Below are positions 11,663 through 32,852 of a DNA stretch of 32,852 nt, one piece after another. The first letter of the stretch is position 1. The number at the start of each line of letters is the position of its first letter. The DNA is from a virus: IMG/VR virus record IMGVR_UViG_3300044638_002232, positions 1-32,852 of that record; one strand, 5' to 3'. Position numbers and translations under genes: made by a program. Below the pieces are notes generated by a model. It made no database searches. It worked only from the letters and a program-made list of their open reading frames with translations, and was not told the origin of the DNA.

Positions 11663-13951
11663 ATGGACATTAAAATATTTCACGACATATTTAATATGGG
11701 GCTTACTCCTATTCCTATTAAGTGGGATACCGAAAGTAAAGACGCGCGGATATATCCGGAACATAAAACGGATATTAGAAACGGTAGCGACCGCCCCGAC
11801 CTAGACGATATTACTCGTTGGTTTAATAAGATACAAGACGCTAACGGTATGGCTCTAAAACTATACCCCCCGTATTTTATGTTCGACTTCGATCTAAAAA
11901 ACGATAAGCGTAAAAATATCTTCGACGAATTTCTTAAAACCGTACGCGCCCTAAACGAAGACGTACTACGTAAAGTATGTATCGAGTCTACTAGATCTAA
12001 CGGCTACCACGTTTACGCTAAGTATAGTAAGATAACTAATAAGCGTATGCTCGCGCTCTCCGAAGAAGGTCGGGAAGTAATAGCTATATATACCGGCGGA
12101 CTACTTAGCTTCTGCGCTCCTACCCCCGGGTACGAGTTTATCCATAACGAGTTCGACGATATCGAAGAACTAACTAGCGACGAGTTCGATACGCTATGCT
12201 CTATCGCTTCATACTTTAACGCCTATACGAAAGGCGACGAACTAACCCCGGAAGCTAAGATTATAGAGTACCCTTCCGAATACGAAGCGATAGCTTTAAA
12301 ATTCGATAGCGACGCTACCGACGACATCTTTATAGAACTTCTTAACTCCCTAGATTTATACGAAGTAAAAGATAAACGCCTATTTAGTCGTAAGAAGTTT
12401 ACTCCCTACCTTCGAAAAGGATCTAACGCGACCTACTCCGCTAAAGTCTATTTCGGTAGTAAGAAGCTTTTATTAATGTCCGCCTCCTTCGTCGACTACC
12501 CTAACTTTCATACTAAGATTAACGAAAACGATACGTCTTGGGTTCTTACTCCTACCCGGATAATATACTATAAGTCTAAACGGGATTGGCGCCTTACGAT
12601 AGATACGATAGAAATGATCTGCGCGGATAACGATATAGACCTATCTCCGAAGCTAGATATAACTAACGTAGCGATAAACGATAAAGCCGCCTTCCCGTAC
12701 GATATATTCCCGGAAGAAATACAAGGGTTTATAAGATCGCAAAGAATACAACACGAATATCTAGCCGGTTCTATTCTAGCCGCTTTATCTACCGCTATAG
12801 GAAACTCTACGATACTAAGTCCTTTCGACGGGTATATAGTTAAACCTATTCTCTATATGGCGATCGTAGCTCCTCCCGGAGCCTCTAAAACTCCGGCGCT
12901 TACTAAAGCTTTTAAACCTATCGAAGAGTACGATAACGAGCTTTATAAGAGCTACGAGCTACTTCTTAAAGATTATAACGATAGACTAGCCGAGTACGAT
13001 AAGAGTAAGAAGAAAGGAGAAGAGAAGCCTCTAAAGCCTTCTTTCCCGCAAACGATTATAAAAGACTCTACGATAGAAATGGTCGTTAAAATACTATCCT
13101 TTAATAAAGGAGGCTGCGCTCTCGTAGCGGACGAGTTAGTCGGTTTCTTAAATAGAATGAATCAATATAAATCCGGTGACGAAGTACAGAAATGGCTTTC
13201 TATGTGGTCCGGCGATTCTATACTACTACAACGTATAACGCGCGACGAGAATAAGGTAGAAGAACCGTTTTGTACTATCGTAGGAGGTATACAACCGGGC
13301 GTGCTAGAATCGCTAAGCCGGGACGATAATGCCCATAACGGGTTTTATCATAGGTTTATTTTCGTATACCCGGAGCCGCAACGTAAAACGGAGTGGGAAC
13401 AGATAACCGTACCGAAGCACGTTAACGATAGCTTTAGAAAGATATTTATAGATCTTATAAACCTCCGAAAGGAAGAGAAGGCGATATACTACCTATCGCC
13501 GGAAGCTAACGACCTATATAAATCGTGGTTTGATAATAAGAATAAAAAGTATAACGTAGCTACGAGCGACCATATTAAAGGGATTATAGCTAAATATCAG
13601 GACTACTGCCTACGCTTCGCCCTAATTATACAAGTAGCCGAAGATCTAGGTAATCGTAGCTACGAGATACGTTTAGCCTCTATAGAAAGAGCTATACGGC
13701 TTACGGAGTACTTTCTATCGAATATGCATAAAGCTTTAAAACTACTAAACCCGGATAACCCGGTAGAAGCTCTTATAGGAGTAACGGAAAAACTATATAA
13801 GCAACTCCCGGCGAACTTTACTACTAAAACGATAGTTACAATCGGAACAAGTTTAGGTATGAAAGAATCTACGGTAAAGGTATTTTTAAAGCGAAACGTC
13901 GGTAAACTCTTCGAAAAGATAGAAAGAAACACGTACGAGAAGGCTTTTTAG
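11663..13951 (+). CDS. Prim-pol / DUF3987 primase-helicase
   Basis: 762 residues. The N-terminal 200 residues resemble a bifunctional primase-polymerase domain: GLTPIPIKW, RPDLDDITRWF, the metal pair Asp75/Asp77 in FMFDFDLKN, and SNGYHVYAKYS. The C-terminal part is a DUF3987-type P-loop ATPase with Walker A PPGASKT (404-410) and Walker B ALVADELVGF (Asp490-Glu491), followed by GGIQPGVL. Together they would lay primers and unwind DNA, the only replication initiator-like protein in the genome (no DNA polymerase gene is visible, so host polymerase is needed). A repeat-rich candidate origin begins at its stop codon. Confidence 0.85.
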   Translation: MDIKIFHDIFNMGLTPIPIKWDTESKDARIYPEHKTDIRNGSDRPDLDDITRWFNKIQDANGMALKLYPPYFMFDFDLKNDKRKNIFDEFLKTVRALNEDVLRKVCIESTRSNGYHVYAKYSKITNKRMLALSEEGREVIAIYTGGLLSFCAPTPGYEFIHNEFDDIEELTSDEFDTLCSIASYFNAYTKGDELTPEAKIIEYPSEYEAIALKFDSDATDDIFIELLNSLDLYEVKDKRLFSRKKFTPYLRKGSNATYSAKVYFGSKKLLLMSASFVDYPNFHTKINENDTSWVLTPTRIIYYKSKRDWRLTIDTIEMICADNDIDLSPKLDITNVAINDKAAFPYDIFPEEIQGFIRSQRIQHEYLAGSILAALSTAIGNSTILSPFDGYIVKPILYMAIVAPPGASKTPALTKAFKPIEEYDNELYKSYELLLKDYNDRLAEYDKSKKKGEEKPLKPSFPQTIIKDSTIEMVVKILSFNKGGCALVADELVGFLNRMNQYKSGDEVQKWLSMWSGDSILLQRITRDENKVEEPFCTIVGGIQPGVLESLSRDDNAHNGFYHRFIFVYPEPQRKTEWEQITVPKHVNDSFRKIFIDLINLRKEEKAIYYLSPEANDLYKSWFDNKNKKYNVATSDHIKGIIAKYQDYCLRFALIIQVAEDLGNRSYEIRLASIERAIRLTEYFLSNMHKALKLLNPDNPVEALIGVTEKLYKQLPANFTTKTIVTIGTSLGMKESTVKVFLKRNVGKLFEKIERNTYEKAF

Positions 13952-14240
13952 TTACAAAGTTACAGCAAAGTTACAACGGCTGTAACTTTCAAACCTAGTG
14001 TAGGAGCGGGTTATAGGTCAAAGTTACAAAGTTACATACTTACTAAGAAGTAAAAAATACTTATATTATATATATATATATAATACGTATATAGGTATTT
14101 AGAGATAGAGATACCGAAAAACCTGTAACTTTGTAACTATCACTATAACTCGCTAGAAATCAATGACTTAAAAGTTACAATCGGTGTAACTATTCTGTAA
14201 CTATTGTAACTTTCGAAATATTTATCTAATTATTTATAAT
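13951..14240. other. Candidate replication origin: iterons and AT-rich core
   Basis: 290 bases without a confident gene. Six GTTACA (13951, 13959, 13970, 14023, 14031, 14174) and six TGTAAC (13981, 14124, 14132, 14185, 14196, 14205) motifs occur within 260 bases. The 14-mer GTTACAAAGTTACA is present at 13951 and 14023 and in inverted form at 14124-14137. AAAGTTACA (13967-13975) and TGTAACTTT (13981-13989) form a perfect hairpin. The inner inverted pair encloses an AT-rich stretch (about 14050-14100, with an alternating TA run). These motifs contain TG and CA, which the backbone avoids, implying selection. Position right after the primase-helicase supports an origin; a regulatory array is the alternative. 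Confidence 0.65.
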
Positions 14241-14248
14241 TTTATACT

Positions 14249-14722
14249 ACGAAAAACTCTAAAGACATAATAGCCGAGCTTTATATATCTAACGACCTAC
14301 GGGTATGTTTATCGCGTATCCGCCCGATAGATATACAGGAGGAGGTATTACAGCATACTTTCGAGGATCTCCTCTCTAAGCCGGAAGAATTTATTATAGA
14401 TCTCTATAATAGAAATAAATTAAAGGCTTACGTCGCTAAAATGCTCGTTAATATGGTCCGATGGGAAAGAGGCTCGTTTAGGAAGCTAGAGGCGAAGGAA
14501 ACGTACTTAGAATCGCTACCGGACGTAGTAGAGGAAATAGAAGTAGAGGTAATTGTAGTACCTTTACATAGAATCCATTGGTACGAAGCTAAAATACTAG
14601 AACTATACGCAGAACTAGGTACGTATCGTAAGGTAGCCGAAGCGACGGGCATACCGCATATTTCGATATACCATACGGTACAGAACGCTAGGAAGAATAT
14701 TAAAAAATTTATAGATATATGA
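14249..14722 (+). CDS. Sigma-70-like factor, start codon unclear
   Basis: From codon 14249 the frame gives about 157 residues with a region-2-like part (DIQEEVLQHTFEDLLSKPEE, NRNKLKAYVAKMLVNMVRWE) and a C-terminal region-4-like helix-turn-helix (ILELYAELGTYRKVAEATGI, then SIYHTVQNARKNIKKF). The first ATG is at 14441, which would discard most of region 2. The frame is open to 14240 but holds no ATG, GTG or TTG before 14441. The bases TTTTATACTACGAAAAAC would give ATG-ACT-ACG-AAA if one G followed 14245, so an indel is possible. Probable role: directing host RNA polymerase to the late genes downstream. Confidence 0.65.
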   Translation, partial: TKNSKDIIAELYISNDLRVCLSRIRPIDIQEEVLQHTFEDLLSKPEEFIIDLYNRNKLKAYVAKMLVNMVRWERGSFRKLEAKETYLESLPDVVEEIEVEVIVVPLHRIHWYEAKILELYAELGTYRKVAEATGIPHISIYHTVQNARKNIKKFIDI

Positions 14723-14898: not shown

Positions 14899-15098
14899 AA
14901 GAACTAGAGTACCTCTACGAGAGAGTAAAAATCGGAATCGATGCCCACGCTTCGGATATCGAAATAGAGAAATTTATAGCATTAGCTAAGGAGATTAACC
15001 CCGAGTTAGATTGGGCGGTTAGAGGCTGCCAATCCTGCGTTAACGAGCTAGTACGGTTCGTATTCGAAAACTATAAAAACGAAGAAAATGCCGACTAA
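14895..15098 (+). CDS. Hypothetical protein (67 aa)
   Basis: Acidic helical protein (LEYLYERVKIGIDAHASDIE, then LDWAVRGCQSCVNELVRFVF). It contains two nearby cysteines (CQSC) but no second pair. It overlaps the terminase small subunit gene by 11 bases, which suggests a link with packaging or simply operon compaction. I recall similar proteins just before terminase genes in Bacteroidota phages. Confidence 0.6.
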   Translation: MKELEYLYERVKIGIDAHASDIEIEKFIALAKEINPELDWAVRGCQSCVNELVRFVFENYKNEENAD

Positions 15099-15510
15099 GA
15101 AAGGAAGAGGAAAATATATAGAAAGCCCGGAAGTACTATGGGAGCTATTCGAGGCGTATTGTAAAGACGCTAAAAGTAAGCCGTTTATCGTTACAGATTG
15201 GGTAGGAGGAGCCGGAGTACAGGTAGATCGTAAGAAGGAAAGACCTCTAACGATGGAAGGCTTTAGTATCTTCTGTTGGGATAAGATAAGCCAGATTAAA
15301 GACTATTTCGCGAATACGGGAGGAAATTATACCGAATATTTACCTATCTGCGCGCGTATAAAGGAAGCTATACGAGAAGATCAGATAGGCGGAGGTATGG
15401 CAGGTATCTATAACCCGTCGATAACGCAGCGCCTTAACGGACTCGTAGAGAAGACTCAAACGGACGTAAAGGTAGAGCAAGGTTTATTTCCGGACGTTAA
15501 ACCTGAGTAA
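15088..15510 (+). CDS. Terminase small subunit (DNA-packaging protein)
   Basis: 140 residues. The segments ESPEVLWELFEAYCKDAKSK, ERPLTMEGFSIFCWDK, YTEYLPICARIKEAIREDQI and NPSITQRLNGLVEKTQ match the gp3-like small terminase group common in Bacteroidota phages and prophages. The role is recognition of phage DNA for packaging. A basic N-terminus (MPTKKGRGKY) precedes it. The stop is immediately adjacent to the large-subunit start (shared base at 15510). Confidence 0.8.
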   Translation: MPTKKGRGKYIESPEVLWELFEAYCKDAKSKPFIVTDWVGGAGVQVDRKKERPLTMEGFSIFCWDKISQIKDYFANTGGNYTEYLPICARIKEAIREDQIGGGMAGIYNPSITQRLNGLVEKTQTDVKVEQGLFPDVKPE

Positions 15511-29761: not shown

Positions 29762-30704
29762 TCATTTCTTTATCGGAGCACCCGATGAGTTTTTAGATTC
29801 TACCGACGTTACTTACCCTGCGCTATTTGCGGAATTAAAGCCGGACGGTAACGTATCTCTAACCGATAGAGTAGCTAACTATAACTTTACGTTCTATTTT
29901 TTCGATTTAATGGATACCGCTAATAAATCGTTAGCAAACGTTTGGGACGTTACGAGCGATATGTCTTCGGTAGCTCAGGACTATCTAGCGCTTCTTAAAG
30001 ACGTAGACTATACTACCTGGGAAGTAGGAGAAGAGTACGCTTTAAATATCGTAGACTATCAATTACAGGATCTAACGTGCGGAGTATCCGTAGACGTAAC
30101 TATAGGCGTACGGTTCGACGCTAACCGTTGTCAAGTACCTAGTACTTATACCTTCGAGGAGTACGCTTCGGATACGTTAACGTTAAAGCAAACCGTAGGA
30201 AGGATAGAAGCCTTAGCTACGGCGCATAAACAAATTAACCACGTATTTATAGGATCTTTCGACGAGTTCTTAGACGGAGAAGACGTAACATACCCGGCTA
30301 TGTTCGGAGAGTTAAATCAGACTAGTCGTATAAGTCTAACGGATCGTTTAGCTACGTATAGCTTTACATTCTATTTCTTCGATCTTCTAGATATAGCGGA
30401 TAGAAGTCTAGCTAACGAGTTTGAAGTTAAAAGCGATATGGCTTCTGTAGCTTTAGATTTCCTAGCAATGCTTAACTACTTCGGCTTTCAACATTCGTGG
30501 GAGATCGGTACCGATTACCCTATGCAGATAAAGGATTATCAATTACAAGACTTAACGGCTGGCGTATCGATTAAGGTAGATATATCTACTCGCTTCGACG
30601 CTAATAAATGTCAAGTACCGGTAGATCTAGGTAACTTCTTACTCTGGGATGACGGGCAGTACTTCCTTATTAATAACACAGATAAACTTATATATGCCGA
30701 ATAA
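29700..30704 (+). CDS. Tail completion-like protein with internal tandem duplication (334 aa)
   Basis: Residues 2-147 and 161-307 are two copies of one domain. Shared landmarks: SHRQINHFFIG / AHKQINHVFIG, DEFLDSTDVTYPALF / DEFLDGEDVTYPAMF, SLTDRVANYNFTFYFFDL / SLTDRLATYSFTFYFFDL, DYQLQDLT in both, and RFDANRCQVP / RFDANKCQVP. A short tail LLWDDGQYFLINN follows. Single-domain relatives are, as I recall, tail terminator-like proteins of Bacteroidota phages, so the fused dimer would build a ring from fewer chains. It overlaps the fibre gene by 11 bases. Confidence 0.7.
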   Translation: MTLKEIISRLEELALSHRQINHFFIGAPDEFLDSTDVTYPALFAELKPDGNVSLTDRVANYNFTFYFFDLMDTANKSLANVWDVTSDMSSVAQDYLALLKDVDYTTWEVGEEYALNIVDYQLQDLTCGVSVDVTIGVRFDANRCQVPSTYTFEEYASDTLTLKQTVGRIEALATAHKQINHVFIGSFDEFLDGEDVTYPAMFGELNQTSRISLTDRLATYSFTFYFFDLLDIADRSLANEFEVKSDMASVALDFLAMLNYFGFQHSWEIGTDYPMQIKDYQLQDLTAGVSIKVDISTRFDANKCQVPVDLGNFLLWDDGQYFLINNTDKLIYAE

Positions 30705-32852
30705 AAAAATTAATCAGTTAGACGTTAAGGTTGCGGTATCGACTGACTTAATGTTAGTCGGAGATCCGGTGACGGGAACCTCTTTTAAATCAACAGTCGC
30801 AACATTACCATTGGTTCCCTATACAGGCGCAACTGCAACCGTTGACTTAGGTGATAACGACTTAGAAGCGGGTTCAGTATTTGTAGAAGGTGCTTCTGGG
30901 ACAGGTGGTGCATTAAGAATAAAACAGTTTGCGAGTTCAGGTGCGAATTTAGATGGTTATTCTACAATAAGCACTTTAAATACAGGAGTATTTTATTTTA
31001 CAGCTGCTGCTACTTCGCCAAATTTTAAAAACTTTGTTTTAAACCCAAGTGGTTTAACTGATAATACTCTTAGGACATATACCTTGCCAGACCTTAGTGG
31101 TACATTGGCATTGTTGAGTGATATTACACCTGGTCTTACATCTGTTGGTCTTTCTATGCCTTCAGCATTTGCGGTTAGTAATTCACCTCTAACGAGCAAT
31201 GGAACAATAGCGGTTACGGGCGCAGGTACATCGGCACAATATATCAGAGGAGATGGTCAATTAGCTAACTTCCCTACAAATGGCGGTGGCGGTTCATCGG
31301 TTAATTATTATTTAAATGGTTCTGTAACTCAAGGAACTTTTGGAGGTGACACTTACTATGAAATGAGTAAGACGCCTGTACTTGGTGCAGGAACAGACTT
31401 TACAAGGACAAACGCACAAGGAAATGGTTATATCGCATCATTTATAACTGATGCAGGAGACCCATCGCTTTTAAGCATACCAGGAGGAAATTGGAACTTA
31501 GAGTTCTATTTCAATGCAAGTAGTAGTGGAAGTACACCTCAATTTTATGGTGAGATTTACAAGGTTGATGCATCTAACAACTTTACCCTTATCGCAAGTG
31601 CTTCGGCGAATCCCGAAACAATTAGTAGTGGAACAATAGTTGACCAATATTTTACATCTATTCCCGTTCCACAAACATCACTACTTTCAACCGATAGGTT
31701 ATCGGTTAGGATTTATGTCATTCCAAGTGGTAGAACAATAACACTACACACCGAGAATAGCAACCTTTGTGAGGTTCTTACAACCTTCTCAACTGGTTTA
31801 AATGCACTCAATGGGTTGACATCTCAAGTGCAATACTTTGCAACGGGTACAAGCGGAACAGACTTTGCAATCAGTTCAGCAACAGACACACATACTTTTA
31901 ATCTACCAATTGCATCAGCAACGAATAGGGGTGCATTGAGTTCTGCTGATTGGAGTACGTTTAATGGCAAGGTAGGCGGTAGCGGTGCAACGGGACAAGT
32001 TGCATATTGGAATGGAACGAGTAGTCAGACGGGGAGTAATAATTTGTTTTGGGATGCTGCAAATAGTAGGTTGGGGATTGGGACTAATTCTCCTGCGAAT
32101 ACCTTGCACTTGTCTGCATATAATACAACAAACTCACAAGTAAGAATAGGGTCTTTAGAATTACAATCATTTTCATTAAATAATGGTTGGTTAGGTTCTA
32201 ATATTTTTTACAATTCAGGTTTTGTTGTAAGAAATACTGGCAGAACGGGAATGTTTTATTTTTTAGATGATGAAGGTCAATTTAGAATGACAACATCATT
32301 AGCTGCTGGCACTGTAATAACTTCAACAGACACTGTCCAATTAAAAATAAATAGTTTAGGCAACTTTGCATTAGGACAAGCAATAAGTAATGATAGGAAT
32401 GTTTTTACTGGTGCAAAATTAGTTTTTTATGGCAGTACAGGAAATTTGTTGATTGGCACTACCACCGATGGCGGTCAGCGTTTGCAGGTGCAGGGTGATG
32501 CGTTTATAAAGGGGAGTGGAGCAACGAGTGCGACAAGTGCTTTGTTGGTGCAGAATAGCGGTGGGACAACAACATTAACTTTAAACAACGCAGGCAACCT
32601 CGGTTTGTCAGTTACACCGAGTGCGTGGACTTCGTATGTTGCAATGGAATTAGGTAGGGCAGGGAATAGCATATTTGGATATAATGGAGCAGAGATTGGT
32701 TTAACAAGCAATGCTTATTATAATTCAGGATGGAAATATGGCGGTACTGGTGCAGCAACTTTGTTTGGAAATTCTGCTGGTTCATTTTCTTGGTTTAATG
32801 CACCATCAGGCACCGCAGGTAACGCTATATCCTTTACCCAAGCAATGACGTT
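30694..32852 (+). CDS. Tail fibre protein, N-terminal part (runs off the right end)
   Basis: ATG at 30694 overlaps the end of the upstream gene by 11 bases, and the frame stays open to the window end. Joined at the terminal repeat (32796 to base 1) it gives a 3030-base gene of 1009 residues. The first 25-30 residues (MPNKKINQLDVKVAVSTDLM and on) are probably the part that docks on the tail and are encoded in the TG/CA-poor style of the virion genes. From about 30770 the DNA switches to ordinary composition, so the shaft and receptor-binding part look exchanged. The shaft shows low-complexity Ser/Thr/Gly/Asn beta repeats such as RLGIGTNSP and GNLLIGTTTDGG, and a typical early segment ending YTLPDLSGTLALL. 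No enzymatic domain is recognisable. Function as adhesin is inferred from repeats, size and position. Confidence 0.8.
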   Translation, partial: MPNKKINQLDVKVAVSTDLMLVGDPVTGTSFKSTVATLPLVPYTGATATVDLGDNDLEAGSVFVEGASGTGGALRIKQFASSGANLDGYSTISTLNTGVFYFTAAATSPNFKNFVLNPSGLTDNTLRTYTLPDLSGTLALLSDITPGLTSVGLSMPSAFAVSNSPLTSNGTIAVTGAGTSAQYIRGDGQLANFPTNGGGGSSVNYYLNGSVTQGTFGGDTYYEMSKTPVLGAGTDFTRTNAQGNGYIASFITDAGDPSLLSIPGGNWNLEFYFNASSSGSTPQFYGEIYKVDASNNFTLIASASANPETISSGTIVDQYFTSIPVPQTSLLSTDRLSVRIYVIPSGRTITLHTENSNLCEVLTTFSTGLNALNGLTSQVQYFATGTSGTDFAISSATDTHTFNLPIASATNRGALSSADWSTFNGKVGGSGATGQVAYWNGTSSQTGSNNLFWDAANSRLGIGTNSPANTLHLSAYNTTNSQVRIGSLELQSFSLNNGWLGSNIFYNSGFVVRNTGRTGMFYFLDDEGQFRMTTSLAAGTVITSTDTVQLKINSLGNFALGQAISNDRNVFTGAKLVFYGSTGNLLIGTTTDGGQRLQVQGDAFIKGSGATSATSALLVQNSGGTTTLTLNNAGNLGLSVTPSAWTSYVAMELGRAGNSIFGYNGAEIGLTSNAYYNSGWKYGGTGAATLFGNSAGSFSWFNAPSGTAGNAISFTQAMT
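32797..32850. repeat. Terminal direct repeat, right copy
   Basis: Exact copy of bases 1-54, inside the tail-fibre gene. It marks where the circular sequence was cut. It could instead be a real terminal redundancy, but its position in the middle of an adhesin gene and its short length favour an assembly overlap. Confidence 0.9.

Follow-up and report, generated by a model that had tools for sequence, protein, structure and literature searches.

What does a dense array of short repeats do directly behind a viral primase–helicase gene? The question is raised by the IMG/VR record IMGVR_UViG_3300044638_002232, the whole of which (32,852 nt) was analyzed and is called the window. A sequence-only reading had proposed 13951–14210 as a candidate iteron-type origin of replication tied to a DUF3987 primase–helicase. 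This proposal is supported, since across relatives the array follows the gene and its letters co-vary with the predicted DNA-reading helix of the protein, as expected of a Rep–ori pair. Replication of the phage very probably starts at 13951–14210, with the 762-residue product of the gene just upstream as the phage's own initiator.

The repeat array and the predicted initiator

The features of the locus are the following, in coordinates of the window.

11663–13951, plus strand: proposed initiator gene, encoding a 762-aa DUF3987 protein (Pfam, AlphaFold model, and PDB fold matches)
13778–13942, plus strand: C-terminal winged helix-turn-helix, residues 706–760, proposed iteron reader (model of residues 690–762)
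13835–13840, plus strand: thirteenth GTTACA, inside the 3' end of the DUF3987 gene
13865–13897, plus strand: predicted recognition helix, residues 735–745 (secondary structure; co-variation with the repeat unit)
13880–13882, plus strand: codon of recognition-helix residue 740
13892–13894, plus strand: codon of Arg744 in the recognition helix
13951–13986: left outer group, iterons 13951+, 13959+, 13970+, and 13981−, of which the last two form the hairpin
14023–14036, plus strand: left inner pair, the 14-mer GTTACAAAGTTACA, sites 14023+ and 14031+
14051–14100: AT-rich core, proposed melting site (from sequence; an AT core lies between the groups in most relatives)
14124–14137, minus strand: right inner pair, the inverted 14-mer, sites 14124− and 14132−
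14174–14210: right outer group, iterons 14174+, 14185−, 14196−, and 14205−

All twelve GTTACA/TGTAAC hexamers originally reported within 260 bases were found again. They are arranged in a mirror plan of two six-site groups that flank the AT-rich core, which, as described, contains an alternating TA run (approximately 14051–14100). The 14-mer occurs in direct orientation at 13951 and 14023 and inverted at 14124–14137, with no further copy in the record. The perfect 9-bp hairpin at 13967–13989 (AAAGTTACA-ACGGC-TGTAACTTT) is likewise present and consists of two head-to-head iterons, its stem varying with the repeat unit among lineages. An intrinsic terminator was considered for this hairpin and rejected, no terminator-like site being found. 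In the whole window GTTACA occurs 24 times, compared with 11.7 ± 3.3 times in dinucleotide shuffles; 12 of the 24 are packed into the 260 bases, and outside the array the frequency is close to chance. When 652 windows of 300 bases were scored for repeats by a Poisson model, the strongest signal, a log10P of −20.4, fell directly behind the gene, and the runner-up reached −6.2. Hence, the array lies far beyond chance. The GC-skew profile, named earlier as a check of the origin, runs without a clear switch at the array.

The only significant Pfam domain of the 762-aa protein is DUF3987 (PF13148; 206 bits, cut-off 27). A sequence search of the PDB with the protein gave nothing useful, and the useful matches came from fold comparison only. 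The AlphaFold model has a pLDDT of 80 and a pTM of 0.52, the latter making the arrangement of the domains in the full-length model uncertain. At the N terminus, the best fold match is the primase–polymerase of pRN1 (3m1m and 1rni, E down to 2.4e-6, Foldseek), and the AEP residues D75, D77, and H116 are invariant across 20 relatives. The model further matches MCM replicative helicases in the PDB over approximately 400 columns, and the Walker-type residues K409, D490, and E491 are conserved. Modeled alone, the last 73 residues (690–762) adopt a winged helix-turn-helix (pLDDT 85); the corresponding PDB fold matches are weak (best E 0.06), many of them being winged-helix regulators and one the WH domain of MCM8. 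The protein is thus predicted to combine a primase–polymerase fold, an MCM-like helicase, and a C-terminal winged helix. From the fold, it would act as a helicase and assemble into a hexamer. No characterized DUF3987 protein was found in the literature, nor a publication connecting DUF3987 with iterons, in a search whose coverage mostly excluded subscription journals.

Co-variation of array and predicted recognition helix across relatives

The widest scan of viral contigs yielded 49 loci, from which 31 lineages with an unambiguous repeat unit were retained, the window among them. Units and register were assigned by hand from consensus words. In all 31, an array of short repeats lies directly behind the DUF3987 gene. 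The earlier suggestion to look beside DUF3987 genes in relatives was borne out, as in 31 of 34 lineages no cluster of repeats anywhere in the locus scores above the array at this place. Of the three exceptions, L055 and L071 carry their arrays farther downstream behind inserted genes, and L041 has degenerate copies only. The proposal had also been made to depend on the repeats being present in close relatives; herein, the GTTACA array is kept at 84–100% identity. More distant relatives keep the place, the spacing, and the AT core with a different repeat unit, namely GTAACA, GTCACA, GTTGCA, GTTTCA/GATTCA, TATGCA, TGTGCA, ATAACA, ATTACA, GTAAAA, GTCAAA, GTAAGG, or AAACGA. On a tree built from the rest of the protein, the 31 lineages show 14 units and at least 16 unit switches. 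The layout (+++- / ++ / AT core / -- / +---) and the 8-bp tandem spacing are kept across units in most lineages. Site numbers vary, with 8 + 6 in the TATGCA lineages and far more sites to the left of the core than to the right in the GTAAAA clade. The genes behind the array also vary by lineage (nuclease-like, SNF2-like, HTH), and the array stays with the DUF3987 gene.

Beyond these lineages, a genome scan gave one distant bacterial match that has neither this C-terminal domain nor a repeat array, annotated phages and plasmids contributed distant relatives only (up to approximately 31% identity), and further single-protein scans returned no new lineages. Short repeats are also seen at the gene ends of relatives with approximately 30% identity (gut phages L093 and L094, Bacteroides plasmids L095 and L096) and of a more distant Bartonella plasmid protein (L098, 25.7%). 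These repeats behind distant DUF3987/YfjI-family genes are of CTGCA, CTGAA, CGACA, and CCTTCA types. Because of them, a gene followed by a downstream array may be the general plan of DUF3987 helicases.

Residue 744 lies near the end of the predicted recognition helix. Every one of the 24 lineages whose unit has C at place 5 carries Arg there, compared with none of the seven that lack this C. In the alignment of the 31 lineages, this is the sole column of 818 that is split perfectly by place 5. The count covers relatives in which the column is safely alignable, leaving out the far ones at approximately 30% identity. On the helicase tree, residue 744 has switched at least three times. Shared ancestry among lineages calls for caution in reading this co-variation; against it stand two sister pairs that switched on their own. 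One is formed by L060 (GTCACA, R744) and L050 (GTAAGG, S744), the other by L065 (GTTACA, R744) and L070 (GTAAAA, N744). L065 and L070 are 97.3% identical over residues 1–695, 77.6% in the C-terminal domain, and 54% in the recognition helix. Their non-coding stretches still align, and each of the 16 repeats of L065 stands opposite a GTAAA-type repeat of L070, in register; the module was therefore not exchanged as a block. At sites approximately 119, 234, and 242 bases behind the stop, L065 reads GTAACA or GTAACC in place of GTTACA; these three odd repeats may be left over from a stepwise change between GTAAAA and GTTACA.

One helical turn before residue 744, Ser740 accompanies G at place 4 in each of the five lineages that have this G, which belong to two separate clades, and is found in one further lineage apart from them. 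No comparable position in the recognition helix emerged for places 2 and 3. As an out-of-sample check, C at place 5 was expected in L071, in L055, and in L057, a near twin of L055, since all of them have Arg744. When their displaced arrays were located, the units were GTTACA in L055 and GTATCA in L071, both with the predicted C. The array, its layout, its linkage to the gene, and the co-variation are direct readings of the sequences, and the co-variation strongly supports the proposal that the C-terminal domain would set iteron specificity. A specific pairing of reader and repeat is proposed, in which residue 744 goes with place 5 and residue 740 with place 4. With somewhat less than even confidence, this can be extended to a readable initiator–origin code, whereby few changes in the recognition helix (744 reading place 5, 740 reading place 4) accompany the rewriting of a dozen or more repeats, singly, in register, and without a module swap. 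The rewriting may be driven by escape from origin-targeting elements, as a gene lying between initiator and array in L055/L057 (described below) would suggest.

From these features we infer binding, ring loading, melting, and origin activity as follows. The C-terminal winged helix of each subunit would bind one GTTACA iteron, and subunits would collect on the iterons on either side of the AT core to form two facing MCM-like helicase rings. The rings would melt the core at 14051–14100 and load onto the single strands, where the N-terminal primase–polymerase domain would prime and two forks would leave. In related phages, the unit would be rewritten site by site with the layout kept and the recognition helix changing alongside. 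Six sites per side are suggestive of one site per hexamer subunit in the window's own clade; one hexamer per side as a general rule was dropped, given that site numbers differ between clades.

Comparison with known origins and alternative roles

The closest plan is found in PICI and SaPI elements. The C-terminal domain of SaPI Rep recognizes iterons located immediately behind its gene, to which the protein apparently binds as two hexamers (PMC7581432), and PICI origins contain two sets of iterons on either side of an AT-rich region, an organization said to be absent from every other known bacterial replicon (PMC6092414). As proposed for the window, the origin of these systems (SaPI Rep, Pri-Rep, and Cch2 of SCCmec) lies immediately 3' of the gene of the initiator helicase, and the C-terminal domain reads the DNA (PMC6092414, PMC7581432). 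The known cases are self-loading ring helicases; here, ring loading would be predicted from the fold match to MCM and the conserved Walker-type residues. With its position directly 3' of the initiator gene and its 6 + 6 sites around the core at 14051–14100, the array appears to work like a Rep–iteron origin of the PICI/SaPI type. It falls outside that class of elements, however, because it belongs to a phage with terminase genes of its own and because the architecture of the initiator is another one, a DUF3987 protein with an AEP primase–polymerase fold and an MCM-like helicase. Unlike a helper-dependent satellite, the window encodes both terminase subunits; further structural genes are suggested by gene order and ORF reading. 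The proposed origin plan is known from PICI/SaPI; it occurs here in a full phage with a different type of initiator.

Other systems share single traits. The pRN1 protein ORF904 has a C-terminal winged helix, as is predicted for the window protein, for which it is also the best N-terminal fold match. Replication of pRN1 is proposed to start in non-coding DNA that immediately follows the gene and could fold into a large stem-loop (PMC4234260), features shared by the region behind the window gene. pRN1 differs in its SF3 helicase domain, in an origin described as being without iteron structure, and in its archaeal host (PMC4234260). The window region does have stem-loop potential, yet it is built of iterons. 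The alpha protein of phage P4 follows a similar plan, being a single polypeptide that contains primase, helicase, and winged helix and binds origin repeats (PMC4234260), but its primase is of the bacterial Toprim type and P4 is a satellite. For RepA and the origin of PLE, together with the ICP1 nuclease Odn, DNA-binding domain and origin similarly co-vary, with specificity switched repeatedly (PMC7145576, PMC8263062). PLE, in contrast, uses a RepA_N initiator without predicted helicase or primase activity and long semi-palindromic iterons, and it switches by module swap, whereas here the repeats have changed where they stand, between spacers that are kept. Iteron plasmids of the Rep_3/RepE-like class are set apart by the Pfam result, DUF3987 being the one significant domain, and by the predicted helicase fold.

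Could the fold of the region matter instead of its letters? The 267-base strand folds at −50 kcal/mol, compared with −20 for shuffles (z −9), which would fit a large stem-loop or cruciform as the functional element, with the repeats as mere arms and the protein reading the fold. The N-terminal match to ORF904 of pRN1 points the same way, its proposed origin being a stem-loop just downstream of orf904 (PMC4234260), and several lineages fold clearly better in native form than after shuffling of the spacers around fixed iterons. However, such spacer-only shuffles fold nearly as well in 6 of 18 lineages (z −0.3 to −1.9), where the pairing thus stems from the mirror-placed iterons, and degenerate iterons beyond the strict unit inflate the scores of the remaining lineages. 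A stem-loop alone would also leave the same-strand tandems at 8-bp spacing and the link to residue 744 unexplained. This explanation is considered unlikely, and a pure hairpin origin was rejected, as the pairing is often iteron symmetry.

Winged helices are common in repressors, and in some lineages a DNA-binding HTH or sigma-like gene comes next, as might be expected if the array served as an operator or regulatory hub, where the initiator or some other protein would control transcription of the neighbors, with no origin involved. The sites lie behind the gene and not before it, though, GTTACA elsewhere in the window is near chance, and promoter-like sites are at shuffle level, which makes this role very improbable. 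Least probable is a role in packaging, as a cos/pac signal for the small terminase, whose gene lies approximately 900 bases downstream at 15088–15510: the letters of the repeats co-vary with the winged helix of the DUF3987 protein. Both roles are further made unlikely by the relatives, in which the next gene changes between lineages (nuclease-like, SNF2-like, or HTH) and the repeats follow the initiator.

Read as a Rep–iteron origin, the locus gives the widespread DUF3987 a predicted function, that of a replication initiator with its origin directly behind the gene. The origin plan of satellite islands would then also hold for ordinary phages whose initiator joins an archaeal-type primase to an MCM-like helicase. 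The lineages also offer a natural experiment in which an initiator and its numerous binding sites appear to shift specificity together, with single residues pinpointed.

Neighboring genes and sequence composition

The genes near the initiator encode a RecT-like annealing protein, a methyltransferase-like protein, and the terminase subunits, the closest terminase matches being Flavobacterium phages (51%). In L055 (4054–4617, minus strand), and also in L057, a gene is inserted between initiator and array. Its product combines a MUG113-type domain, which we take to be GIY-YIG-like, with a C-terminal winged helix related to that of the initiator (hhalign probability 92, E 6.6e-7; BLASTP E 1e-5). 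This fusion is reminiscent of Odn, the origin-directed (origin-cutting) nuclease of phage ICP1 (PMC8263062).

The backbone was described as shunning CA and TG, and this holds, with odds of 0.47 in the whole window and of 0.2–0.4 across most of 6–24 kb. The depletion is strong from approximately 4000 to 30000, weak at 30001–32000, and absent at 1–2000, the odds at the left end being normal (1.18); CG and TA are in surplus. The initiator gene contains 32 CA, compared with 132 in the 84%-identical L036. Relative to L036, CA was lost through several kinds of change, with the differences mostly at third codon positions. The bias looks like avoidance of CA/TG and not like one type of mutation. Behind the array, conservation of the HTH/sigma-like gene at 14249–14722 extends upstream past the first ATG (14441), and L036 starts it with GTG where the window has ACG at the matching place. 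The ACG is either a non-standard start or the mark of a shortened protein, and the change is perhaps a side effect of TG avoidance.
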